From: an uncultured Bacteroidota bacterium | GTDB taxonomy: Bacteria > Bacteroidota > Bacteroidia > Flavobacteriales > UBA7312 | Direction: 5' to 3' | Assembly: GCA_902580855.1 (NCBI GenBank) | Contig: CACHMF010000008.1 | Coordinates: 1-53,241 of the forward strand | Length of the DNA stretch: 53,241 bases | Shown here: piece after piece, positions 2,730 to 53,241 of the stretch | How the letters are laid out: every line of letters begins with the position of its first letter | Position numbering within the stretch: position 1 is the first letter of the stretch | The notes under the pieces: generated by a model | The model's input: only the letters and a program-made list of their open reading frames with translations | Told to the model about the DNA's origin: nothing | Database searches by the model: none | Program-made: the position numbers and the translations under genes

Positions 2730-3976
2730 TAGGATTAGCCGATTGTAATAACTTCTATGCCTCTTGTGAAAGAGTGTTTAATCCCCAACTAAGAAATAAA
2801 CCTTTAGTGGTATTATCTAACAATGATGGGTGTGTAATTGCGAGAAGTAATGAAGCCAAAGCATTAGGTATTAAGATGGGAGAACCTGCCTTTAAAATAA
2901 AGGCATTGATTGAGAAACATAAAGTCAATGTATTCTCTACTAACTTTGCACTGTATGGAGATTTATCCGATAGAGTGATGAACACCTTAAAATCAGAGGT
3001 AGAAAGAGTAGAAATCTATTCCATAGATGAAGCCTTTTTAGATTTCTCAGAACTATCAACAACAGATAGAGCCGTATCTATAAAGAAGAAGGTGCAACAA
3101 TGGACAGGCATTCCTATTTCTCTTGGAATAGCACCAACTAAATCCTTAGCCAAAGTGGCTAACCATATTGCTAAAAAATATACTAAGAAGGGTGTTTTCA
3201 TCTTAGATGATGAAAACGTCATCAAAAGAGCCTTAAATTTCTTTCCTGTAGAGGATTTATGGGGTGTGGGTAGAAAGTATGCCAAGCGTTTGAAGCAATC
3301 AGGTATTAATACGGCATTAGATTTCAGAAATGTAGACCCAGAATGGTTAAGAAGAAACTTCTCTGTAAATGGTATTCGTTTACAAAAGGAACTTCAAGGA
3401 GAAAAGTGTTATGATTTAGAGCTAAATCCTGCAAGGAAAAAGAACATCTGTACAGCTCGTTCTTTCGGAAAAGAGATAGAGGATTACAAAAGGATAAAAG
3501 AAGCTGTTAGTACCTTTGCAAATACTTGTGCGACTAAACTCAGAAAAGAAAAGAGTTGTTGTTCTAAGATTTCTGTTTTCTTGATGACTAATCCGTATAA
3601 ACCAAATGCTAAACAATACCACCCACATATCACTTTAGATTTTCAGACACCTACCAATGATAGTGCTGAAATAGTAAGCATGGCAAATACGGCATTAAAA
3701 AGTATTTACCGAGATGATTGCATTTATAAAAAGGCAGGTGTAATCGTTCAGAATACGACACCACAAGAAGAGGTGCAGATGTCTTTATTTGATACGATTG
3801 ATAGAGATAAAAGGAGAAAATTGATGTATTCGGTAGATAAAATAAATATGCTAATGGGTAAAGATAAAATCCGATTAGCGTCTCAAGGATTTGAAAGAAG
3901 ATGGAAACTCAGGCAAGAGAAATTATCTCCTTGTTACACCACACGATTTGCAGATATTTTAACAATAGATATTTAA
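2726..3976 (+). CDS. umuC: Y-family DNA polymerase V subunit UmuC
   Basis: [70 protein letters not shown]. Confidence 0.95.
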
Positions 3977-13945: not shown

Positions 13946-14161
13946 TCAACTATCCCAAGCAGCGGAGTGAACTTGTATTTTAGTGTCTTTTTCGGAAATA
14001 ATTTTGATTGACTTGTAATTGCAAACTTCTTTTTCGTTTATTTCTCTATGTTTACCATCACAAAAAGGCATTACAGCGCTTGCACCACAAGTGCAAATAC
14101 TGTATCGTTTTCCCTTGATTATAGTAATTTCTTTAGAGCTCTCTGGAAATTCAATAGACAT
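13946..14161 (-). CDS. CDGSH iron-sulfur domain protein
   Basis: YSICTCGASAVMPFCDGKH matches the CDGSH [2Fe-2S] motif. Confidence 0.85.
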   Translation of the reverse strand: MSIEFPESSKEITIIKGKRYSICTCGASAVMPFCDGKHREINEKEVCNYKSIKIISEKDTKIQVHSAAWDS

Positions 14162-14547: not shown

Positions 14548-15927
14548 ATGAAAAAATACATTTACTTATGTCTACTCAGCTTTTTACTTGCTGCATGTAA
14601 TTCACCTAAATCTCTTTATAAAAAAGGTATTAAACTTCAAGAACAAAACCTACATGAACAAGCATGTCTTTACTTTACTCAATCACTAGACAAAAAACCC
14701 GAATTTACAGAAGCTAACCAAGCCTTGAAAATCTCAGGACAAAGAGTTGTTAATAATTACCTGGATGAATTTTTTAAATCCAAAAACTTTCAAAAAGTTA
14801 AAGAAGCTGTGTATCTGTATCGTTCAGCTTTACTTTTTCAAAAAAAAGTTGAAAAATATAAGATACTAATAGAAATTCCCGCACATTACACAAAAGACTA
14901 CAATATTCTGATAGATAGCTATTTAGAAAATATTTACACTAAGGCACTTAATTTATTGTCAGAAGAAAAATTTAATGAAGCAGAAGAATTATTTAAAGAA
15001 GTTTCCTTACTCAAACCTTCTTATAGAGATGTAGATGATTTACAAAATGTAGCCACTTTTGAACCTATATATCGATCTGCAGTTTCTTTTTTAGAGATCG
15101 AAAAATTTAGAGCTGCTTATTATGAATTTAATAAAATACCTGACTCATATAAAGATACAAAAGCTTTACAAAAAATTGCACTTGAAGCCGGCCTATTAAC
15201 CATTGGTTTAATGAGTTTTGAAAACGCAACCAATCAAAAAGGAGGTGAAGCAAGTGTTTCAGCACATATTTCAGATAAAATGATAAAGCTGAACAACCCT
15301 TTTATTAAGTTAGTAGATAGGATTCACACACAGACACTTATTAACGAACAAATAATGGGCTTAAGTGGGCAAACAACAGATAACACTGCTGTAAATGCAG
15401 GTGAACTAATTGGAGTTAAAGCAATTTTAACAGGTAAGCTTATCAGTTTTTCAAAAACAAAAAAACCTATTAAAAAAGAAGTGAAGAAAGCTTGGATCGA
15501 ACGTAAAGTTAAAAAATATAATCCTGACACTGAAAAACATTATTTCGAAAACGAATATGAAAAAATCACTTATAATGAGTTTTACGGTAGTAATGAAGTA
15601 AACATTTCGTTTCAATACCAGCTTATTTCTACAGAAAGTGGAGAGATTTTATTAACTGACATCATTAATCTATATAAAAAAGATGAGGTGTATTTTGCTA
15701 CTTCAAATTATAACTACAGAAATATTGTTCCAGGATATTGGAGGTGGCCAAATAAAAAAGATTCCTCAGATAAGATCAACAAGTCTATTTTAGAAAAAAA
15801 TGCCCTTAAGAAACTGTTCAGAAACAATCAAAACTTAAAACCTGTTACTCAAATAGCTGATGAGATTTACAACGACATTGCTAAGAGAATAACACAGGAC
15901 ATTAACACATATAATCCAGAAAAATAA
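14548..15927 (+). CDS. lipoprotein with TPR-like N-terminus and CsgG/LpoB-like C-terminal domain
   Basis: Lipobox LLAAC; IGLMSFENATN...LVDRIHTQTLINEQIMGLSGQTTDNTAVNAGELIGVKAILTGKLISF resembles CsgG/LpoB/TolB-N type domains. Confidence 0.65.
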   Translation: MKKYIYLCLLSFLLAACNSPKSLYKKGIKLQEQNLHEQACLYFTQSLDKKPEFTEANQALKISGQRVVNNYLDEFFKSKNFQKVKEAVYLYRSALLFQKKVEKYKILIEIPAHYTKDYNILIDSYLENIYTKALNLLSEEKFNEAEELFKEVSLLKPSYRDVDDLQNVATFEPIYRSAVSFLEIEKFRAAYYEFNKIPDSYKDTKALQKIALEAGLLTIGLMSFENATNQKGGEASVSAHISDKMIKLNNPFIKLVDRIHTQTLINEQIMGLSGQTTDNTAVNAGELIGVKAILTGKLISFSKTKKPIKKEVKKAWIERKVKKYNPDTEKHYFENEYEKITYNEFYGSNEVNISFQYQLISTESGEILLTDIINLYKKDEVYFATSNYNYRNIVPGYWRWPNKKDSSDKINKSILEKNALKKLFRNNQNLKPVTQIADEIYNDIAKRITQDINTYNPEK

Positions 15928-17329: not shown

Positions 17330-17905
17330 TTATTGATTAGCTATTTGTTCCATAGCTTCTTCAAATGTTTTCTTGAACTGTTCGTAGTTGTACTGGGCTT
17401 TAACTTTTTCATCTTTCGATAAACGCTCATGATACTTAGCAACTAATTTGTCAGCAGAAAGCTCAATAGCCATATAGCATTTGTATTTTCCTTCAGATGT
17501 TTGGGTAAATTTTTCACAAATTTTAATCGCTCCTCTTAATTCCTCATTAACTATGGTACGTGCCATTTCGTTAAAAGATTCTGTAACTTCTTCTTTGTTG
17601 TTAAATTCGGTCGAGCTCACATAATTATCACCTACAATTTGCATGGTCGATTTCATGGTTTTTGCCAATTCCGATTGAGCGTTAGAACGCGCTTTCTTTT
17701 TTGAAGTCATTTGATCTAAGCTCTCGCCAATAGCGCTGGCTCTAAAAGTCTTTTTATCAGAAAAGAAATCTTTTCCAGAGCAATACTGCTCTAGCAACAC
17801 CTCTCCTTGTTGTTTAGGTGAAACACCTACTTCTTCTTTGCTTTTACAGCCTACCACTAAAAGTGTAGAAAGAGCAAACAAAGTCATAATTTTAAATATT
17901 CTCAT
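17330..17905 (-). CDS. small LPP20-like lipoprotein
   Basis: Lipobox LLVVGC; ASAIGESLDQMTSKKKARSNAQSELAKTMKSTMQIVGDNYVSS and KCYMAIEL resemble the LPP20 core. Confidence 0.6.
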   Translation of the reverse strand: MRIFKIMTLFALSTLLVVGCKSKEEVGVSPKQQGEVLLEQYCSGKDFFSDKKTFRASAIGESLDQMTSKKKARSNAQSELAKTMKSTMQIVGDNYVSSTEFNNKEEVTESFNEMARTIVNEELRGAIKICEKFTQTSEGKYKCYMAIELSADKLVAKYHERLSKDEKVKAQYNYEQFKKTFEEAMEQIANQ

Positions 17906-19695: not shown

Positions 19696-20660
19696 AAAAG
19701 ACGTTTTACTCCTTTACACTCATCATAGCACTAATCGGTATCGCTAAGTTTTTTAGCTTTTCTTCTAACGAACTTGCTGATGATCAGTCTTTCATGAACC
19801 ACTTCAACAGCAAGTATTCCATTTTTGCACTACCCAAACCTACTGCACAAATGGATTTTTGCGGAGAGCGTGTTCCGCTTGAAAACCCTGATATCTGGGA
19901 GCGTTTTGATAAGGAACTCTTAAAAAACACTTATTGGCAATCCAACACTCTTTTGTTGCACAAGCGCGCCCACAAGTATTTCCCTATCATCGAACCTATT
20001 TTAGCAGAATACCAGGTACCTGACGATTTCAAGTACCTAGCGCTGATAGAAAGCGGTTTGGAAAATGTCATCTCCCCTGCTGGCGCTACAGGTTTTTGGC
20101 AAATCATGAAAGGAACTGCTAAAGAGTTTGATATGGAAGTGAATTCCGAAATAGATGAGCGCTACCATCTAGAGAAATCAACTATCCTTGCCTGTAAATT
20201 TTTATCGATAGGAAAAGAAAAATTTGGCTCATGGACCCTTGCTGCTGCTGCTTACAATATGGGGCGAACAGGGTTACAAAAACAAATGAACATTCAAAAA
20301 GCAAATAACTATTACGATCTACTACTGAACAACGAAACATCGCGTTATGTATTCCGTATCTTAGCCTTAAAGAACATTATAGAAGATCCTAAACATTATG
20401 GATTTCACTTAAGAGATAAAGACCTTTATCAGCATGTACCTACCTATTCGGTAAGTGTTGATAGTGCTGTAAGCGATTGGTCCGATTTTGCTAAAAAACA
20501 TGACATCAACTACAAGATACTAAAACGATACAACCCTTGGTTGAGAAAAAACTATCTAACAAACAGCAAAAGAAAGGTTTATAAAATAGATATTCCGCAA
20601 AAAGGATATTACACATTTCAACCATCAAAACCTACAGAAAGCATCGAATTAAGCAAGTGA
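19692..20660 (+). CDS. lytic transglycosylase (SLT domain), MltD-like
   Basis: YLALIESGLENVISPAGATGFWQIMKGTAKEFDMEVN...ERYHLEKST...AAAAYNMG. Confidence 0.9.
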   Translation: MKKTFYSFTLIIALIGIAKFFSFSSNELADDQSFMNHFNSKYSIFALPKPTAQMDFCGERVPLENPDIWERFDKELLKNTYWQSNTLLLHKRAHKYFPIIEPILAEYQVPDDFKYLALIESGLENVISPAGATGFWQIMKGTAKEFDMEVNSEIDERYHLEKSTILACKFLSIGKEKFGSWTLAAAAYNMGRTGLQKQMNIQKANNYYDLLLNNETSRYVFRILALKNIIEDPKHYGFHLRDKDLYQHVPTYSVSVDSAVSDWSDFAKKHDINYKILKRYNPWLRKNYLTNSKRKVYKIDIPQKGYYTFQPSKPTESIELSK

Positions 20661-23476
20661 AAAAAAAGGAGTATTTAAAGGTTTATGGTGCTAAAGAGCA
20701 CAATCTTAAAGACATCAATGTATCTATCCCCCGTAACGAATTAGTGGTGATTACCGGGTTAAGTGGTAGTGGAAAATCTTCATTGGCTTTCGATACTATT
20801 TATGCAGAAGGACAAAGAAGATACATTGAAACCTTTTCGGCTTATGCACGTCAATTTCTTGGCGGATTAGAACGCCCTAAAGTCGACAAAATAACAGGCT
20901 TAAGTCCAGTTATTTCTATCGAGCAAAAAACCACGAGTAAAAATCCAAGATCTACTGTAGGTACTATAACTGAAATTTACGATTTCTTGCGTTTGCTATA
21001 TGCAAGAGCATCTAACGCTTATTCTTCCAACACAGGAGAGCAGATGGTTTCATATTCTGATGAGGAAATTGTGCAAACCATAATAGATGAAATGAGTGGA
21101 AAAAAACTACTCCTTTTATCTCCTGTAATTCGCTCTCGCAAAGGACATTATCGAGAACTCTTTGAACAAGTTAGTAAACAAGGGTTTGTAAGAGTTCGAG
21201 TAGATGGAGAAATCCTAGAAATAGAACCAGGAATGAAACTAGATAGGTTCAAAACCCATGATATAGAAATTGTAGTTGATCGCCTTCTTGTAAAGAAAGA
21301 TAACGAAAGTCGCATTAAACAATCTATACAGACAACGTTAAAGCATGGTAAGGGATTAATGATGACGATGGATTATCAAACAAATAACTTACGATTTTTC
21401 AGCCGGCAACTCATGTGCCCATCAACTGGAATTGCTTATGCTTCTCCAGAACCTAATAGTTTTTCTTTCAACTCTCCAAAAGGTGCCTGTTTGTATTGTA
21501 ATGGTTTGGGAAGGGTTCACGAAATAGATATAGACAAGATATTACCCAATAAAAACTTAAGCATCAATAAAGGTGGGATTGCTCCTATAGCTGATCGTAA
21601 AGGTGAATGGATATTAGATCAACTGGAAATAATTGGTAAAAAATTCAATTTTGAACTTACCACTCCAATTAAAAATATATCCAAAAAAGGAGTAGATGCT
21701 ATTCTTTATGGAATCAATGAGAGTTTTCAAATGGAAATGAAAAATCTTGGTCTTAACAAGGTTTATAACATCAATTTTGAGGGCATTGTAAACTTCTTAG
21801 AAGAACAACATAAAAACTCTAGCTCTCCAAAACTAAAAAGATGGGCTGCTGACTACATGAATAAAGTTGATTGCAAAACATGTAACGGAAGTCGATTAAA
21901 CACAGAAGCGCAATATTTCAAAATAGACGATAAAAATATATCTGAGGTGGCGCAAATGGATATTGTAAGTCTGAAGAAATGGCTAAAACAGCTAGATAAA
22001 AAACTGTCTTATAAACAACAAGTTATAGCAAAAGAGATTCTAAAAGAATTGAATAAGCGAGTACAATTCTTACTTAATGTAGGTCTAAATTATTTAAGTC
22101 TTAATAGGTCTGCAAAAACACTCTCAGGAGGCGAAAGCCAGCGTATTCGTTTAGCTACTCAAATCGGCTCTCAACTTAACGATGTATTGTACATTTTAGA
22201 TGAGCCAAGTATTGGCTTGCATCAAAGAGATAATCAAAAACTTATTCATTCTTTAAAAGAACTACGAGATGTTGGTAATTCTGTCATAGTAGTGGAACAC
22301 GATAAGGACATGATTTTAGAAGCTGATTATGTGTTAGATCTCGGCCCTGGAGCAGGTATACATGGTGGACATGTTATAGCAAAAGGAACAGCACAAGAGT
22401 TTATTCAGTCACCTTCACTTACTACAGATTACATCAATGACATAAAAAAAATTGAGGTTCCAAAAAAACGCAGAAAAGGAAGTGGTAAAAAGATACAACT
22501 AAACGGTGCCAGCGGAAACAATCTTAAAAATATTGATGTTGATTTTCCTCTTGAAAAACTAATCTGTGTAACTGGCGTTTCTGGTAGTGGTAAAAGTACA
22601 CTTATCAATGAAACACTATACCCTATTCTAAATCAGTATTTTTTCAGGGGGGTGAAAAAACCTTTAACCTACACTTCTATTCATGGATTGGAATATATTG
22701 ATAAAGTAATTGAGGTTGATCAATCACCAATTGGAAGAACACCTCGCTCCAACCCTGCCACATACACAGGAGTATTTTCAGATATTAGAAACCTTTTTAC
22801 CAACCTTCCAGAAGCCAAAGCAAGAGGTTATAAACCGGGAAGATTTTCATTTAATGTTTCAGGGGGGCGTTGTGAAACTTGTCAAGGTGCTGGTTTACGC
22901 ACCATTGAAATGAACTTTTTACCCGATGTTCATGTTCCTTGCGAAAGCTGTCAAGGTAAAAGGTATAATAGAGAAACACTTGAAATTCGTTACAAAGGAA
23001 AATCAATTTCTAATGTACTTGACATGACAATTAATCAAGCTGTTGATTTCTTTCAACATATTCCTTCTATTGCTAGAAAGATTAAAACATTACTTGATGT
23101 TGGATTAGGGTATATTACACTTGGTCAACAATCTACAACACTTTCTGGAGGTGAAGCACAAAGAGTGAAGCTGGCTTCTGAACTTTCTAAAAAGAGTACA
23201 GGAAAAACTTTCTACATACTAGATGAACCTACTACGGGGCTTCATTTTGAAGATGTAAAAGTACTACTAGAGGTACTAAATAGATTGGTAGATAAGGGTA
23301 ATACCGTGGTAGTCATAGAACACAATTTGGATGTTGTTAAAGTTGCGGATCACATCATAGACCTAGGCCCTGATGGTGGTGAGGTTGGTGGACAACTACT
23401 TTGTAACGGAACTCCCGAATCGGTCGTAAAATGTAAGAAAAGTTATACTGCAGCGTTTTTAAAAGACGAACTATAA
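20657..23476 (+). CDS. uvrA: excinuclease ABC subunit A
   Basis: Two ABC domains ([52 protein letters not shown]), zinc-finger CxxC motifs, [12 protein letters not shown] and [15 protein letters not shown] start. Confidence 0.97.
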
Positions 23477-26377: not shown

Positions 26378-26404
26378 AAAAAAGCGGCTTTCAGCCGCTT
26401 TTTT
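26378..26404. terminator. bidirectional Rho-independent terminator
   Basis: Perfect hairpin AAAAAAGCGGCT-TTC-AGCCGCTTTTTT between convergent genes; it overlaps the last bases of the minus-strand gene. Confidence 0.92.
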
Positions 26405-27557
26405 ATTGCTTCTTCTGTTTCTTACTCCCTTCATACATTTCGTATTTCAAGAAACGACATTCGAGCTGCCCATTAAAGAGTTTTATTCTTCTTGTATGTT
26501 TTAAGCCAATGTGCTTTACTGCCTCCATATCCGAGGTGATAAGCCAAGCCGAACAGCCAGCATAATTCTTTTTAAAGGTGTCACCTATCTGTCCGTATAG
26601 CTCATTTACATCCGCCTCTAAACGCTCACCATAAGGAGGATTGAATAATACTACCCCCTTATTTTCAAACAAATAAGGCTTTTTAATAAAATTCATCCTA
26701 TGCACCTCAATAATATCATCTAATAAAGCATCTTTAATATTAGCTTCTGCTTTTCGAATAGAAGCAAACGCTCTATCACAAGCAATAATTTTTCCAGGAA
26801 AATCTTTCACTTTCTTTAGAGCTGAATCCTTGATTGTATTCCACAGCTGCTCATCAAAGTTTTTCCAATTCATAAAACCAAAACCTTTTCTATGTAGAGC
26901 CGGTGGTATATTACAAGCAATCATAGCAGCTTCAATCGCTAAGGTTCCCGAACCGCACATGGGGTCCAAAAAGTCGCTCTCTCTGTCCCAATCACTTAAA
27001 AGAATTAATCCTGCCGCCAATACTTCGCTAATAGGTGCATTATTGGTAACATGCCTATACCCCCTTTTATGCAAGGAATCTCCAGAACTATCTAAAGAGA
27101 TGTTACACTTATCATTAGAGATATGCACATTGATACGCACATCTGGATTTTTCACATCCACATTAGGACGCTTACCTCTGCTTTTGTCTCTGAAATAATC
27201 AACAATAGCATCTTTTACTTTTAATGCTACATAGTGGCTGTGATTGAAAAAATCTGAATTTACAGCAGCATTTACAGCAATCGTATTGTTTACATCAATG
27301 TACTGATCCCATTCAAACTTTTTTGCTTCTTCATACAACTGCACATCTCTTCTAGCAGTTAGCTGATGAATGGGCTGCAGAATACGAATGGCTGTTCTTA
27401 AACATAAGTTCGCTTTATACATGAAGCCAAGGTCGCCCACAAAACTTACCGCTCTGTTTAATACCGTCACTTCTTGAGCGCCTAATTGTCTAAGCTCTTC
27501 TGCTAAGACTTCCTCCAAACCCAATTGGGTTTTCGCTATCATTTTAAAATTCTGCAT
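26403..27557 (-). CDS. THUMP-domain class I SAM-dependent RNA methyltransferase (RlmL/Trm14-like)
   Basis: FLDPMCGSGTLAIEAAMIACNIPP, FNPPYGERL, N-terminal THUMP-like segment. Confidence 0.9.
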   Translation of the reverse strand: MQNFKMIAKTQLGLEEVLAEELRQLGAQEVTVLNRAVSFVGDLGFMYKANLCLRTAIRILQPIHQLTARRDVQLYEEAKKFEWDQYIDVNNTIAVNAAVNSDFFNHSHYVALKVKDAIVDYFRDKSRGKRPNVDVKNPDVRINVHISNDKCNISLDSSGDSLHKRGYRHVTNNAPISEVLAAGLILLSDWDRESDFLDPMCGSGTLAIEAAMIACNIPPALHRKGFGFMNWKNFDEQLWNTIKDSALKKVKDFPGKIIACDRAFASIRKAEANIKDALLDDIIEVHRMNFIKKPYLFENKGVVLFNPPYGERLEADVNELYGQIGDTFKKNYAGCSAWLITSDMEAVKHIGLKHTRRIKLFNGQLECRFLKYEMYEGSKKQKKQ

Positions 27558-33792: not shown

Positions 33793-35016
33793 ATGAAAAA
33801 TTTCGAAATACCCAATTTCTATCGATCCCCTATCATTAGTACAATTAAGAAGAGTCGTAAAGAATTGGATCCTAAGAAGAAAGACTTCTCTCCAACTATT
33901 GTTGATTTTGGGCCAGTACAATTTCACTTAGCTAGACACTTTGGTTTTTGCTATGGTGTAGAAAATGCTATTGAAATTTCTTACAGAGCTATAGAAGAAA
34001 ACCCAAACAAAAATATTTATCTCTTGAGCCAAATGATACACAACCCAACTGTAAATGATGACTTACAAGCAAAGGGATTGAAATTTATTATGGATACACA
34101 AGGGAAACAACTAATTGCTTGGGATGATATTACTAGTGATGATGTAGTAGTGACCCCAGCTTTTGGAACAACCATAGAAATACAAGAATTACTAGAAAAA
34201 AAAGGAGTTTCCTTGCAAAAATATGATACCACTTGTCCTTTTGTAACCCGTGTTTGGAAAAAAGCCGAAAACATTGGAAAAAAGGACTTTACCATTATCA
34301 TACACGGCAAGTATAGGCATGAGGAAACAAGAGCTACTTTCTCACACTCCAACCAAAATTCCCCATCTCTAGTTATTCGTGATATGGAAGAAGCAAAATT
34401 GCTATCTGAATTTATTATTGGAACTAGAAAGAAAGAAGAGTTTTATAAGCTATTTAAAGATAAACACTCTAAAGGTTTTGATCCTGAAAAGGATTTAGCA
34501 AAAATTGGTGTAGTAAATCAAACAACCATGTTAGCTAGCGAAACAGAGGGCATTTCAGAGTTCTTGAAATCGGCTATCATTGAGCGATATGATGAGGAAA
34601 ATTTCAAAGACCACTTTGCAGATACAAGAGATACACTTTGCTATGCTACCAACGAGAATCAAAAAGCAACTTACGGCCTTCTAGAAAAAGAAGCTGATTT
34701 AGCAATTGTCGTAGGTGGTTATAATAGCTCCAATACCTCCCATTTAGTAGAACTTTGCCAAGAAAAAGTACCTACATACTTTATTAAATCAGAAGAGGAA
34801 ATTTTATCGGAAGATTTGATACAGCACTACCATTACGAAAGCAAAAAGATACTACAAACACATAACTTCTTACCTGAAAAAAATAAATTAAAAATCATAT
34901 TGACTAGTGGTGCATCTTGTCCAGATGCAATTGTAGATAAAGTACTTCAAAAATTACTCTCATATTTTAAAGGAACACGCTCTATTAAAAGCGTTATAGA
35001 AGAGTTTACTTCATAG
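33793..35016 (+). CDS. ispH: 4-hydroxy-3-methylbut-2-enyl diphosphate reductase
   Basis: ARHFGFCYGVENAIEI, DTTCPFVTRVWKKAE, NQTTMLASET, TSGASCPDAIVDKVL. Confidence 0.94.
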   Translation: MKNFEIPNFYRSPIISTIKKSRKELDPKKKDFSPTIVDFGPVQFHLARHFGFCYGVENAIEISYRAIEENPNKNIYLLSQMIHNPTVNDDLQAKGLKFIMDTQGKQLIAWDDITSDDVVVTPAFGTTIEIQELLEKKGVSLQKYDTTCPFVTRVWKKAENIGKKDFTIIIHGKYRHEETRATFSHSNQNSPSLVIRDMEEAKLLSEFIIGTRKKEEFYKLFKDKHSKGFDPEKDLAKIGVVNQTTMLASETEGISEFLKSAIIERYDEENFKDHFADTRDTLCYATNENQKATYGLLEKEADLAIVVGGYNSSNTSHLVELCQEKVPTYFIKSEEEILSEDLIQHYHYESKKILQTHNFLPEKNKLKIILTSGASCPDAIVDKVLQKLLSYFKGTRSIKSVIEEFTS

Positions 35017-40045: not shown

Positions 40046-41191
40046 TTAAAAGTTACGATGTTCGCTTGTCAGCTCAAAAACTTGTTGAAGGATAGATTTT
40101 TCTATTTCATCAAAAGTAACACCCCTGCGAGCCATTACTTTTTTTGCTACTTCAAATACTTTAGATAATTGATAAGTGCTATAACCGGCTGAACCACCCC
40201 AAGCAAAAGAAGGTACAAAATTGCGCGGGAAACCAGCACCAAAGATATTGGCACTAACCCCTACTACTGTACCTGTATTGAACATTGTGTTGATACCACA
40301 TTTAGAATGATCTCCCATAATGAGACCACAGAACTGTAATCCTGTTTTTTCAAAACAACCAGCATGCTCACTCCACAAGCGCACCTCTGCATAATTATTT
40401 TTAAGGTTAGAATTATTTGTATCCGCACCAATATTACACCATTCTCCTAAAACAGAATTGCCTAAAAAGCCATCATGCCCTTTATTAGAATAGGCCATTA
40501 AAACAGAATTATTGACCTCACCTCCGACTTTACAATGAGGACCTATTGTTGTAGCTCCATAAATTTTAGCACCCATTTTTACTACGGAATATTCACACAT
40601 AGCTAAAGGCCCGCGTACAATACTACCTTCCATCAACTCAGCATTTTTTCCAATGTAAATAGGCCCTGTAGTTGCATTTAGTATTGCACCTTCAACCTTT
40701 GCGCCTTCAGCTACAAAAATATTTTCAGAGCCCATCACAAGATTTGTATCACTTAAAGTTTGAGAGCTACGCCCGGCAGTTAGCAAATCAAAATCGGCTT
40801 GTAGTTCTTTAGCATTATACTGAAAGATGTGCCACAACTTTTTTATTTGAGTGAACTCTTCATTAAAATACACTTTTTGATGCGCTTCATTGCGGTAAGC
40901 CAAAAGGATATCTCCCGAAAATAAACCCTCCCCATCGGCAAGTTTCTGTATAGCTGTCACTAATGCTTTATTTGGGCATAAGCCACCACTGATATACACA
41001 TTATCCAACTCTTTATGTAAAGGATATTTGGTTTGTAGATACTCGGAAGTTTGCGTACTAAAATTTTTTCTAAAATACGTAGCCCATTTTTCTTTTATTG
41101 TTAAGATCCCTATTCGGATTTCTGAAATTGGTCGAGTATGTGTTAAAGGAAATAAAAACTCCCTATTTTCATCAAAAAGAATGTAGTTCAT
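40046..41191 (-). CDS. GlmU-family sugar nucleotidyltransferase-like protein (left-handed beta-helix)
   Basis: N-terminal FDENREFLFPLTHTRPISEIRIGILTIKEKW; hexapeptide region GPIYIGKNAELMEGSIVRGPLAMCEYSVVKMGAKIYG. Confidence 0.88.
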   Translation of the reverse strand: MNYILFDENREFLFPLTHTRPISEIRIGILTIKEKWATYFRKNFSTQTSEYLQTKYPLHKELDNVYISGGLCPNKALVTAIQKLADGEGLFSGDILLAYRNEAHQKVYFNEEFTQIKKLWHIFQYNAKELQADFDLLTAGRSSQTLSDTNLVMGSENIFVAEGAKVEGAILNATTGPIYIGKNAELMEGSIVRGPLAMCEYSVVKMGAKIYGATTIGPHCKVGGEVNNSVLMAYSNKGHDGFLGNSVLGEWCNIGADTNNSNLKNNYAEVRLWSEHAGCFEKTGLQFCGLIMGDHSKCGINTMFNTGTVVGVSANIFGAGFPRNFVPSFAWGGSAGYSTYQLSKVFEVAKKVMARRGVTFDEIEKSILQQVFELTSEHRNF

Positions 41192-47442: not shown

Positions 47443-48195
47443 ATGAGATATTTATGTATAATTTTTTGTGTTGTGCTTTGGATTTCTTGCAAAGAACCTG
47501 GTTGTACAGACCCCATTGCAACCAACTTTGATATTGAAGCAAACAAAGACGATGATAGTTGTGAATATGATTATCCCGTGAAAATAAATTTTGTAGTTAC
47601 CGAAAACGGAAGACCACTGAATGTATACGGAACTTATGATAACAACAATGTTTCTTATCGTTTGGAAACACTGAAATATTACCTATCTCATTTAAAGATA
47701 AACAATAAAGAGATAGCAAATGTTTTTCTATATGACGTAGAAAGTGACAACAATTTCATCTTAACACATCACAACAACAATATAATCAATGCAATTGAAT
47801 TTGGTCTAGGATTAACAGAATCACAAAACTATTCGGACCCCACTACTTTTGTGAGTACTCATCCATTAAGCTTTGCTCAAAACACCTATTGGTATATGAC
47901 TCCTCCATCATATATTTTTGTTATGGTAGAACAAAAAGCAGACACGGTCGGAAATGGAGCATACAACCTACCTATATCTTATCATTTAGCACACAATGAC
48001 TTATACAGACTTGTTCAAAAAGAGGTGAATATCAACTTGTCTTTAACAGATACTGTGGAAGTGACTCTATCTTTGGAACTTCCTGATTTAATGAATAAAG
48101 TTAATTATTCTGAAAATGTTCCACACATGTCTGAATCAACACCAATAGCAAATCTTCTTATGAATAATTTAGCCAATGCGTTTTCTATTCAATAG
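47443..48195 (+). CDS. MbnP-family-like protein with GCTDP motif
   Basis: Lipobox-like WISC, GCTDPIATNFDIEANKDDDSCEY, then KINFVVTENGRPLN...YRLETLKYYLSHLKI...NTYWYMTPPSYIFVMVE, resembling MbnP proteins; next to an MbnH-like gene. Confidence 0.78.
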   Translation: MRYLCIIFCVVLWISCKEPGCTDPIATNFDIEANKDDDSCEYDYPVKINFVVTENGRPLNVYGTYDNNNVSYRLETLKYYLSHLKINNKEIANVFLYDVESDNNFILTHHNNNIINAIEFGLGLTESQNYSDPTTFVSTHPLSFAQNTYWYMTPPSYIFVMVEQKADTVGNGAYNLPISYHLAHNDLYRLVQKEVNINLSLTDTVEVTLSLELPDLMNKVNYSENVPHMSESTPIANLLMNNLANAFSIQ

Positions 48196-49228
48196 TTTCA
48201 TAATTTGTTTTTTATTTATCTCTTGTGAAAGAGATATTCCTATTGAAATTCCAATAGAACCAATACCTTATAACCCAACTTTTGTTGAGTTTTTAAGTCC
48301 CATTGGTTTTCCTCCTGCAAACATTCCTATTGATAATCCTATGACTGAAGAAGGAATTTTACTTGGAAAAAAACTATTTAATGATCCCATTTTATCTGTA
48401 AACAACCAGCAAGCATGTGTTAATTGCCATATGCAAGAATTCAGTTTTACTGATCCCTTACAATTTAGTGTTGGAACAAGTGGAACAATAGGCAAAAGAA
48501 ATTCCATGGCTTTAGTAAATTTGGCCTGGGGAACATCAAATTTTTGGGATGGAAGCACCAGTTCCTTAGAAGAGCAAGCACTAGATCCAGTAACAAGTCC
48601 GATTGAATTACATTCAATTTCTTGGAGTCAGGTTATAAATGAATTAAAAAATACAGAAGATTATCCAGATTTGTTTTACAAGGCCTTTGGAGTGGTAGAT
48701 TTTGATTCTACTCATGTTGCAAAAGCAATAGCGCAGTTTGAACGCACATTAGTTTCTGCACAATCGAAATTTGACTTATTCATTCAACGTAAAACTAACC
48801 TAACTGATTCCGAGTTAAGAGGAATGGATATTTACATGACTGAAAAAGGAGATTGCTTTCACTGCCACTCATACCCATTTATGACTAATCACGACTTTCA
48901 TAACAACGGGCTAGATAATGAGCCTTTTACAGATAATGGACTTGGAGAATTTACTGGAGAATCCTTAGATAATGGCAAATTTAAAACACCAACACTTAGA
49001 AATATAGCATTAACAGCTCCTTACATGCATGATGGAAGATTTTCTACATTAGAAGAAGTTGTTGAGCATTACAACTCTGGTGGTATTGAATCAAGCACCA
49101 TAGACCCATTAATGAAACATGTTGGAAAAGGTCTAGGATTGACTGGGCAAGAAAAGACAGACCTGGTTAACTTTATGCTAACATTTACCGATACAGTATT
49201 CATTAACAATCCCATTTTTCAACAATAG
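48176..49228 (+). CDS. MbnH-like di-heme cytochrome c peroxidase family protein
   Basis: Two CXXCH motifs (QACVNCHM, GDCFHCHS), NSMALVNLAWGTSNFWDG, FKTPTLRNIALTAPYMHDGRFSTLEEVVEHYNSGG. Confidence 0.88.
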   Translation: MRFLFNSFIICFLFISCERDIPIEIPIEPIPYNPTFVEFLSPIGFPPANIPIDNPMTEEGILLGKKLFNDPILSVNNQQACVNCHMQEFSFTDPLQFSVGTSGTIGKRNSMALVNLAWGTSNFWDGSTSSLEEQALDPVTSPIELHSISWSQVINELKNTEDYPDLFYKAFGVVDFDSTHVAKAIAQFERTLVSAQSKFDLFIQRKTNLTDSELRGMDIYMTEKGDCFHCHSYPFMTNHDFHNNGLDNEPFTDNGLGEFTGESLDNGKFKTPTLRNIALTAPYMHDGRFSTLEEVVEHYNSGGIESSTIDPLMKHVGKGLGLTGQEKTDLVNFMLTFTDTVFINNPIFQQ

Positions 49229-49250: not shown

Positions 49251-51059
49251 ATGTTTAGGGGTATTCTTTTACTGTTTTTTTTAGGTTTTACTGTTGCTTT
49301 TGGACAAAAAAGATGCGGTAGTGCTGATAAACTTCTAAATCAGCTTGAAAACAAACCAAAACAGCTTGCCATTCACATGCAAATTGAAGAAAAAATTCAA
49401 AAATTTAGAAATGATAAACGAGGTGTGCCAATCATCAATATACCAGTTGTTTTTCATGTAGTTTATAAAAACAACACAGAGAATATTTCAAAAGCCCAAA
49501 TCCTAAGTCAACTAACTGTTCTTAATGAAGATTTTAGAAGACAAAACATAGATCAAATCAATACTCCCTCGGACTTTGCATCTTTATCAGCCGATACAGA
49601 AATTAACTTTTGTTTAGCCCAACGAACTCCAAGCAACGATACTACAAGCGGCATTACAAGAACTGAAACTTCTGTCAACTCATTTTCTTTATTTGACGAT
49701 CGAATTTTCTATGACTCATTGGGTGGAAAAAACATATGGGATAGTGAATTATATCTTAATATTTATATATGTGATTTATCTAGTGTTTTAGGATTTTCTG
49801 CATTCCCTAGTTCTAATTCAGAAATAGACGGTGTTGTTATTGATTTTGAAAATTTTGGAAACATTGGAACAGCTACAGCCCCCTATCACAAAGGAAGAAC
49901 TTGTACGCACGAAGTAGGTCATTGGCTTAACTTAATACATATTTGGGGAGACATGACTTGTGGAGATGACTTTGTAAACGATACCCCTGAACAAGAATCT
50001 CCTAACTATGGCTGCCCTGCTCATCCAAGTCCAAGCTGTTCAAATAATGGTGACATGTTCAATAACTATATGGATTATACTAATGATGCATGCATGAATA
50101 TGTTTACAATCGGACAAAAAACAAGAATGCAAGCGACTTTAGCAACTGCAAGACAAAGTATAGCTTCTTCAATGGCTTGTCTTATTCCATACGAAGATAT
50201 TGGCATCACAAAAATTAATTCAATTGATAATAATTCTTTTTGTGGAAATCAACTAAATATTGATGTTGAATTAAGTAATTTCTCATCAGATGAAATAAAA
50301 ACAGCTATCATTTCATACCAACTGAACAACCAAACTGTTGTTAATTATTATTGGAATGGTTATTTAGCACCAGGAAGTAGTGTTAACTTAATTATTGGAA
50401 CAGAAGTTATTACTGCTGGAAGCCACGAGCTTTTGGTTTATTCATCATCCCCTAACGGATTTCATGATTTAGATTTTTCAAACGACACTATTGAAGTACT
50501 TTTCGATGTTGTTGAAGGAAACGCTTATAACATCGACATCTTCACTGATAACTATGCTGAGGAAGTAAGCTGGGTGATTACCGACCAAAACAATGGACAA
50601 ATTGCAAGCGGAAATGACCTTTTAAACAATAGTTTAAATGAATTTGAAGTATGTCTAGAACTTGATTCTTGTTACATATTCACTATTTACGACTCATACA
50701 GTGATGGGATTTGTTGTGATTTCGGAAATGGTTTTTTCAGTATTAATGAAAATGTTTTTAGCGGCATTTATACTGATAGCTACAGCATTAATTTGTGTGA
50801 ATTAACTAATACTTCTCAAAAAATTAATCAAACGACAACCATTCATCCTAATCCATCACAGGGTAATTTTGTATTTTTGTCAAACAATATAATTTGTCAG
50901 CTAAAGGTTTATGACATTAATGGTAAGTTAATTTTAAGTAGAAAACCTTTAGACAAATCATTTAAAATCGACTTATCTACATTAAAGGCAGGATTTTATA
51001 CTGCACACATTAAAGATATTAATGGGAACCATAGCGTTCACAAACTAATAAAACATTAA
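49251..51059 (+). CDS. secreted M43 (pappalysin-like) zinc metalloprotease with T9SS type A sorting domain
   Basis: Signal peptide; HEVGHWLNLIHIWGD metzincin motif; NYMDYTNDACMNMFT; C-terminal IHPNPSQGNF...LKVYDINGKLI...YTAHIKDINGNHSVHKLIKH. Confidence 0.92.
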   Translation: MFRGILLLFFLGFTVAFGQKRCGSADKLLNQLENKPKQLAIHMQIEEKIQKFRNDKRGVPIINIPVVFHVVYKNNTENISKAQILSQLTVLNEDFRRQNIDQINTPSDFASLSADTEINFCLAQRTPSNDTTSGITRTETSVNSFSLFDDRIFYDSLGGKNIWDSELYLNIYICDLSSVLGFSAFPSSNSEIDGVVIDFENFGNIGTATAPYHKGRTCTHEVGHWLNLIHIWGDMTCGDDFVNDTPEQESPNYGCPAHPSPSCSNNGDMFNNYMDYTNDACMNMFTIGQKTRMQATLATARQSIASSMACLIPYEDIGITKINSIDNNSFCGNQLNIDVELSNFSSDEIKTAIISYQLNNQTVVNYYWNGYLAPGSSVNLIIGTEVITAGSHELLVYSSSPNGFHDLDFSNDTIEVLFDVVEGNAYNIDIFTDNYAEEVSWVITDQNNGQIASGNDLLNNSLNEFEVCLELDSCYIFTIYDSYSDGICCDFGNGFFSINENVFSGIYTDSYSINLCELTNTSQKINQTTTIHPNPSQGNFVFLSNNIICQLKVYDINGKLILSRKPLDKSFKIDLSTLKAGFYTAHIKDINGNHSVHKLIKH

Positions 51060-51064
51060 TTATT

Positions 51065-53241
51065 ATGAGAAATTTATTTTTGATTCTATTTTTATTTACT
51101 GCCTCGATAGTCAACGGGCAAATTAATCAAGGAGGAACCCCAAGTAGTTTTGAATTTTTTGACTTAAAAAATATTCCTTTAGTAAATGTTGATAAGCCAA
51201 ACATGGATCAAATCAGAATAGAAGACGATGTTGATTCAAAACAAGGAAATATTTATAAATATGGACGTTCTGTTTATACAAATATTGATTTACTAAAAAA
51301 CGGTTCAAAAGATGTCCTTCCAAATGGTAGAGAAATATATAGAATTATGCTTCATGCTGATGATGCATTAGCATTAGGTATAAACTTTTCAGAATTCTGG
51401 ATACCGAGTGGAGGAAAACTTTATGTATATAATCCTGATAAAAGTCAAATTTTGGGGGCATACACCTCAAAAAACAATCACAAAAGTAATGTTTTTGCAA
51501 TTGAACTTCTACAAGGATCAGATGCGGTAATTGAATATGAAGCACCATTAGAAAATGAAAAATTAGCCAAATTGATTATAACTGAATTAAACTATGCCTA
51601 TAGAGGAGTAAATCAATTATTTAGTTCAAGAGATTTTGGTGATTCTGATTATTGTCAAGTTAATATTAATTGTTCACCTGAAGGTGATTCATGGCAAGAT
51701 GAAAAAAAGCTGCATGTCGAATAAGTATAAAAGCAGGATTTTCTTACGGATGGTGCTCTGGTTCTTTAATCAATAACACAGCTAACAACTGTACACCCTA
51801 TGTTCTTACAGCAGATCACTGTGCGTTTGGACAAAATTCTTATGCAAGTGCTAATGATCATAATCAATGGATTTTTTATTTCAACTACGAAGCTCCAGGT
51901 TGTAGTAATCCTAATTCAAATCCTAGCTCAAATTCAATTACTGGTTGTAGTCAAATTTCTTACAGTGGCGCTATTGGAGGAGTAAATGGAAACATTGGTT
52001 CAACATCAGATTTTTATTTGGTTGAGCTTAATACTGCTCCACCACAAAATTGGGGATTATATTATGCAGGATGGGATCGTTCAACATCTGCTTCTAGCTC
52101 AGGAGTTAGTATCCATCACCCCTCTGGTGACATAAAAAAAATATCTACATATACTTCAAGTTTAACAAATGGAGCCTGGAACGGAAATTGGGGTGGAAAT
52201 ACTCACTGGAGAGTTACATGGTCTGGAACTCAAAATGGTCATGGAGTAACAGAAGGAGGGTCTTCTGGAAGTCCAATATTTAACAGTAATGGACATATAA
52301 TTGGTGATTTGTCTGGAGGGTCATCTTACTGTAATGCTACAAGTCAAACAGATCTTTATGGTAAATTTTCTGAGAGCTGGGATCAAGGAGGAACAGCAAA
52401 TAATGCACAGTTAAAACCATGGTTAGATCCAAATAATACTGGAGTAACATTTATTAATGGATTTTATTGCGGAACATCTGCATCTGCATCTTTTAGTTCT
52501 AATGAAACTAATTTTTGTGGGTCCGGACCACATACAGTAACATTCACTAATACTAGTTCAGGTAATATTAGTTCTTATAATTGGCAATTTACTGGGGGAA
52601 ACCCATCATCTGCTACTGGTCCAGGTCCACATAATGTAACTTATTCAAGTAACGGGTCATATACAGTGATTTTACAAATCACAGATAATCAAGGAAATGT
52701 TTCACAGTCGATTCAGCCAGCATACATTAATGTTTTAGTAGGCGATAATGTTAGTCTAGATTTTCTACCAGATTGTTATGGAGAGGAAACATCTTGGGTA
52801 ATAAATGATGCTAATGGTAATGAAGTATTTTCTGTACCAATGGGGTATTATCCAGGTGGTAGCACATCACAGACAATGGAATCAAATCCAACAATGGTTA
52901 ACCATGAAATATGCTTAAGTGAAGGATGTTATGATTTTATACTATCTGATGATTATGGTGATGGTATGTTTGGTTCACAACACTCTTGTGATTTTGATGG
53001 AGATTTTGTCATAAGTAGCAGTAATGGTGATATATTGGGTGAATTAGATGAGAGTCAATATCCAAACGCTGACTTTGGCAATTCATTATCACTTAACTTT
53101 TGTGTAGAGTCATCATCATCAAGCATTAATGATAATAAAAAATTATATAATTTTTACCCAAATCCTACATCTGGAGAAGTCAACATAAATATAGATGGTG
53201 ATTTCAATATATTTATTTATGACGTTTTGGGAAATGTTATT
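51065..53241 (+). pseudogene. secreted trypsin-like serine protease with PKD domain and T9SS type A sorting domain, frame-interrupted at A7 tract (51702-51708); 3'-truncated by window end
   Basis: 51065-51724 encodes signal peptide and pro-region ending ...SWQDEKKLHVE*. Frame 1 from 51709 to window end is open: AACRISIKAGFSYGWCSGSLINNTANNCTPYVLTADHC...GGSSGSPIFNSNGHIIGDLSGG...PKD...YNFYPNPTSGEVNINI. Confidence 0.85.

Follow-up and report, generated by a model that had tools for sequence, protein, structure and literature searches.

We found that a secreted protease gene in an uncultured Flavobacteriales-like bacterium is interrupted at a run of seven adenines, and that this split probably reflects a homopolymer-length error, or a consensus built on a minority variant, in the assembly. 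The break coincides with a dnaX-type slippery heptamer; the apparent split is most likely ordinary and not the sign of a special translation mechanism. The main evidence comes from intact homologues in related genomes, the preserved sequence past the break, a census of the same heptamer in sampled ORFs of the genome, and homopolymer-associated frame breaks in two more conserved genes of this assembly.

Results

The window analysed here is an entire contig of 53,241 bases (C8), one of 69 in an assembly that is 75% complete. Near its end, a forward-strand ORF of 219 amino acids (51065-51724) terminates in GAT GAA AAA AAG CTG CAT GTC GAA TAA, reading SWQDEKKLHVE* in the zero frame with the stop directly past the A run. 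This run is an A7 (51702-51708, + strand), and the heptamer AAAAAAG (51703-51709) has its first A in the third codon position, which gives the phase A_AAA_AAG. From 51709 to 53241 (+ strand) the remaining gene continues in the -1 frame as 511 stop-free codons that reach the window end, beginning with AACRISIKAGFSYGWCSGSLINN and followed by TADHC, SDFYLVEL, GGSSGSP, a PKD domain, and the first part of a tail of the sorting type. The contig ends 1.5 kb past the break, and because it stops at 53241, the final ~40 residues of the protease are missing. The original prediction, which had described an ORF split at the A7 with its remainder in the -1 frame and a heptamer in the zero-frame phase of the dnaX type, is thus confirmed in coordinates and reading. 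The genome's own contigs hold no second copy of the protease gene or of the contig end outside the window, and an Rfam search of the window gave no match.

From its sequence, the gene is a predicted secreted protease of the lysyl-endopeptidase type, otherwise ordinary. Past the break, the protein aligns with Achromobacter protease I (PDB 1ARB; related entries 4NSV/4NSY) over 241 residues (15-255 of the post-break protein; E = 5.3e-41), with the motifs of the His (TADHC, from 51808), Asp (SDFYLVEL, from 52006), and Ser (GGSSGSP, from 52255) residues of the trypsin-like catalytic triad aligned. In this alignment, the Asp in SDQYG of 1ARB is matched by TDLYG of the window protease, which may hint at cleavage after lysine. 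Unlike Achromobacter protease I, the window protease adds a PKD domain (PF00801, about 52480-52737), a further C-terminal domain (from 52738), and a tail (FYPNPTSG, from 53152), all on the + strand, and its assembled copy is frame-broken and truncated by the contig end. The tail breaks off at FYPNPTSG...NVI and has no Pfam Por_Secre_tail match, whereas intact relatives reach an end resembling a sorting tail. The predicted trypsin-type protease with its His and Ser motifs and PKD domain is therefore borne out. The part before the break had no match in a Pfam search; it is homologous to the N-terminal 215 or so residues of intact relatives, and its position and sequence suggest a signal peptide and pro-region that end out of frame in LHVE*.

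The protease has a mixed architecture relative to its paralogues. Its catalytic domain most resembles that of the syntenic paralogues (65-67% identity), and its PKD and C-terminal domains (52450-53241) are common to the nonsyntenic type (45-50%), the last C-terminal domain being absent from syntenic orthologues. This mixture could have arisen by domain exchange, or the architecture could be ancestral and since lost elsewhere.

We compared the locus with nine other genomes of the same family, a check that the original prediction had proposed. Eight of them yielded 13 homologues in total, and all 13 are read in one open frame across the break point. They are 638-766 codons long, apart from one of 524 that is truncated by a contig end. 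Their junctions read through in a single frame as DWQDVKRAVCRIS, DWQDIKRAVCRIS, DWQDAKTAVCRLS, NWQDIKRSACRIS, or AWENQKKSVCRIQ, for instance WQDVK-RAVCRIS or WENQK-KSVCRIQ. None of the 13 carries A_AAA_AAG at the junction; the break is thus confined to this assembly. In the assembled part of the same-genus genome (G001, about 60% complete), nothing matches the protease or its upstream neighbour, an M43 metalloprotease (49251-51059, + strand) that ends in a T9SS sorting tail and was recognised by domain matches. In seven relatives (G002-G008) the M43 and protease genes are adjacent, lying on the same contigs at neighbouring coordinates. A wider search of genome contigs returned distant matches only, most of which fall in the PKD or C-terminal part, and viral contigs had no match to the 25-mer beside the break.

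Two other features of the window lie outside this pair. At 47443-49228, a gene of the MbnP family (PF20243) overlaps the start of a gene of the di-haem cytochrome c peroxidase/MauG family (PF03150), a putative MbnP/MbnH-like pair by sequence. On the minus strand, a 680-base gap between larger ORFs contains a short frame (13970-14160) in which we recognised a CDGSH-like motif by eye; this frame likely encodes a small iron-sulphur protein.

The sequence past the break bears directly on whether the gene is dead. Its catalytic domain is 65-67% identical to syntenic orthologues, and the intact protein of one relative (G004) is 62-66% identical to the others. In the same comparison pN is about 0.25 and pS about 0.67, the latter saturated. 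Identity at the level of intact orthologues, together with pN far below a saturated pS, therefore indicates that constraint persisted until very recently or still persists. Given the absence of decay past the break, we reject a long-dead pseudogene.

To place the break in the context of the whole assembly, we compared sampled stretches amounting to 837 kb of its 1.34 Mb with the ORFs of two relatives (G003 and G007). A usable homologue was available for 296 ORFs. Three of these have an internal frame break, and all three breaks lie at homopolymers of 7 bases or more. Besides the protease, these are an MBL-fold hydrolase (PF00753) broken at a T7 (L028, about 2990-3040; G000:C6) and an FMN-binding protein (PF04205) broken at a G9 (L034, about 15631-15639; G000:C13), which we call NqrC-like from the FMN_bind match and a motif. 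The direction of the one-base offset differs among the three genes. Runs of at least 7 number 692 in 762 kb of ORFs, about 0.9 per kb, so about 5% of 60-nt stretches hold one by chance, and a chance origin of three homopolymer breaks out of three appears unlikely. G003 also has candidate frame breaks, several of them at homopolymers; hence the pattern is not peculiar to this assembly. The T7 and G9 breaks might also be real. Such G9 runs are rare, with only two in the 837 kb, and the second (L091, 10217-10225; G000:C7) lies inside an ORF of this AT-rich genome with no detected break.

Discussion

In the explanation we favour, the A7 would be one base off in the metagenome-assembled consensus near a contig end, whether through sequencing or assembly error or through a consensus that adopted a minority variant. 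The gene in the living population would then most likely be intact and translated without any frameshift, and we infer that the break is absent from the organism itself. The position of the break at a homopolymer, the intact relatives, the lack of decay, the two further homopolymer breaks, and the nearby contig end all point this way. Against a miscount, errors at A7 are uncommon in short-read data, the incomplete same-genus genome offers no matching gene, and a fixed or very recent mutation would look identical. The one-base discrepancies that break the frames of otherwise intact genes resemble homopolymer-length errors described in long-read assemblies (PMC8442456), a likeness by pattern only. 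The sequencing or assembly error that the original prediction took as its default is the best-supported reading.

A recent, real loss of function by slippage in the A tract of the sampled strain is possible, though clearly less probable. Only the signal peptide and pro-region would then be made, and the catalytic domain would be neither translated nor exported. Homopolymer slippage is a common genuine mutation, and a break specific to this lineage fits such an event. However, the 511 codons past the break are free of stops and keep every active-site motif, and the two other conserved genes broken at homopolymers suggest a shared artefact. The single protease copy in this incomplete genome, compared with up to two in relatives, is neutral in this respect.

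Phase variation, in which the length of the A tract would change often and switch the secreted protease on and off, is weakly possible and on balance improbable. Homopolymers in the coding part of secreted proteins are a usual site for such a switch. However, an A7 is short and common in this genome, whose sampled ORFs (762 kb) contain 356 A7 runs and 110 A runs that are longer, and homologues keep no long tract at the junction, so nothing appears to maintain it. Moreover, conserved genes broken alike favour consensus errors or minority variants over adaptive switching. We give an equally slim chance to a broader version, in which a real, population-mixed tract length would switch the protease or -1 slippage on the A7 would yield full-length enzyme at a low level.

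We also considered programmed -1 ribosomal frameshifting at a dnaX-type site, which would yield a truncated protein alongside the full-length one. The phase of the heptamer is right, a zero-frame stop follows closely, the -1 product would be the full protease, and the slippery A AAA AAG in this phase is shared with the E. coli dnaX site (PMC11162774). A dnaX-type site would also have a stimulatory structure some 6 nt downstream of the heptamer and an internal Shine-Dalgarno about 10 nt upstream, the latter being the spacing in dnaX-based constructs (PMC11162774). In contrast to E. coli dnaX, the window site has no downstream hairpin: the 81 nt past the heptamer have a minimum free energy of -7.9 kcal/mol versus a shuffle mean of -11.7 kcal/mol (z = +1.4), less stable than shuffles. 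Its Shine-Dalgarno-like AAGGTG sits too far away, at 16 nt. Nor is the site conserved, since the 13 homologues show neither frame break nor slippery site at this position. The heptamer is commonplace in ordinary genes of its own genome, where the 727 sampled ORFs (762 kb) hold 89 copies in phase, no more than the 105.6 +/- 9.9 expected from synonymous-codon shuffles. Five of those 89 fall within uninterrupted ORFs elsewhere in the window (20657-23476, 33793-35016, 26403-27557, 40046-41191, and 17330-17905). Moreover, truncation would leave a signal peptide and pro-region alone, with no evident use. With conservation, census, and folding all against it, we reject programmed frameshifting as highly improbable. 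The original prediction had already doubted it, citing the lack of a strong stem and a weak AAGGTG placed about 15 nt upstream, and both observations hold.

A programmed or phase-variable break would imply that this uncultured Flavobacteriales-like bacterium regulates a secreted protease. On the homopolymer reading favoured here, the locus serves mainly as a warning: one-base breaks at homopolymers affect about 1% of the checkable genes in this assembly, and "pseudogenes" and "slippery sites" called from it therefore need read support.
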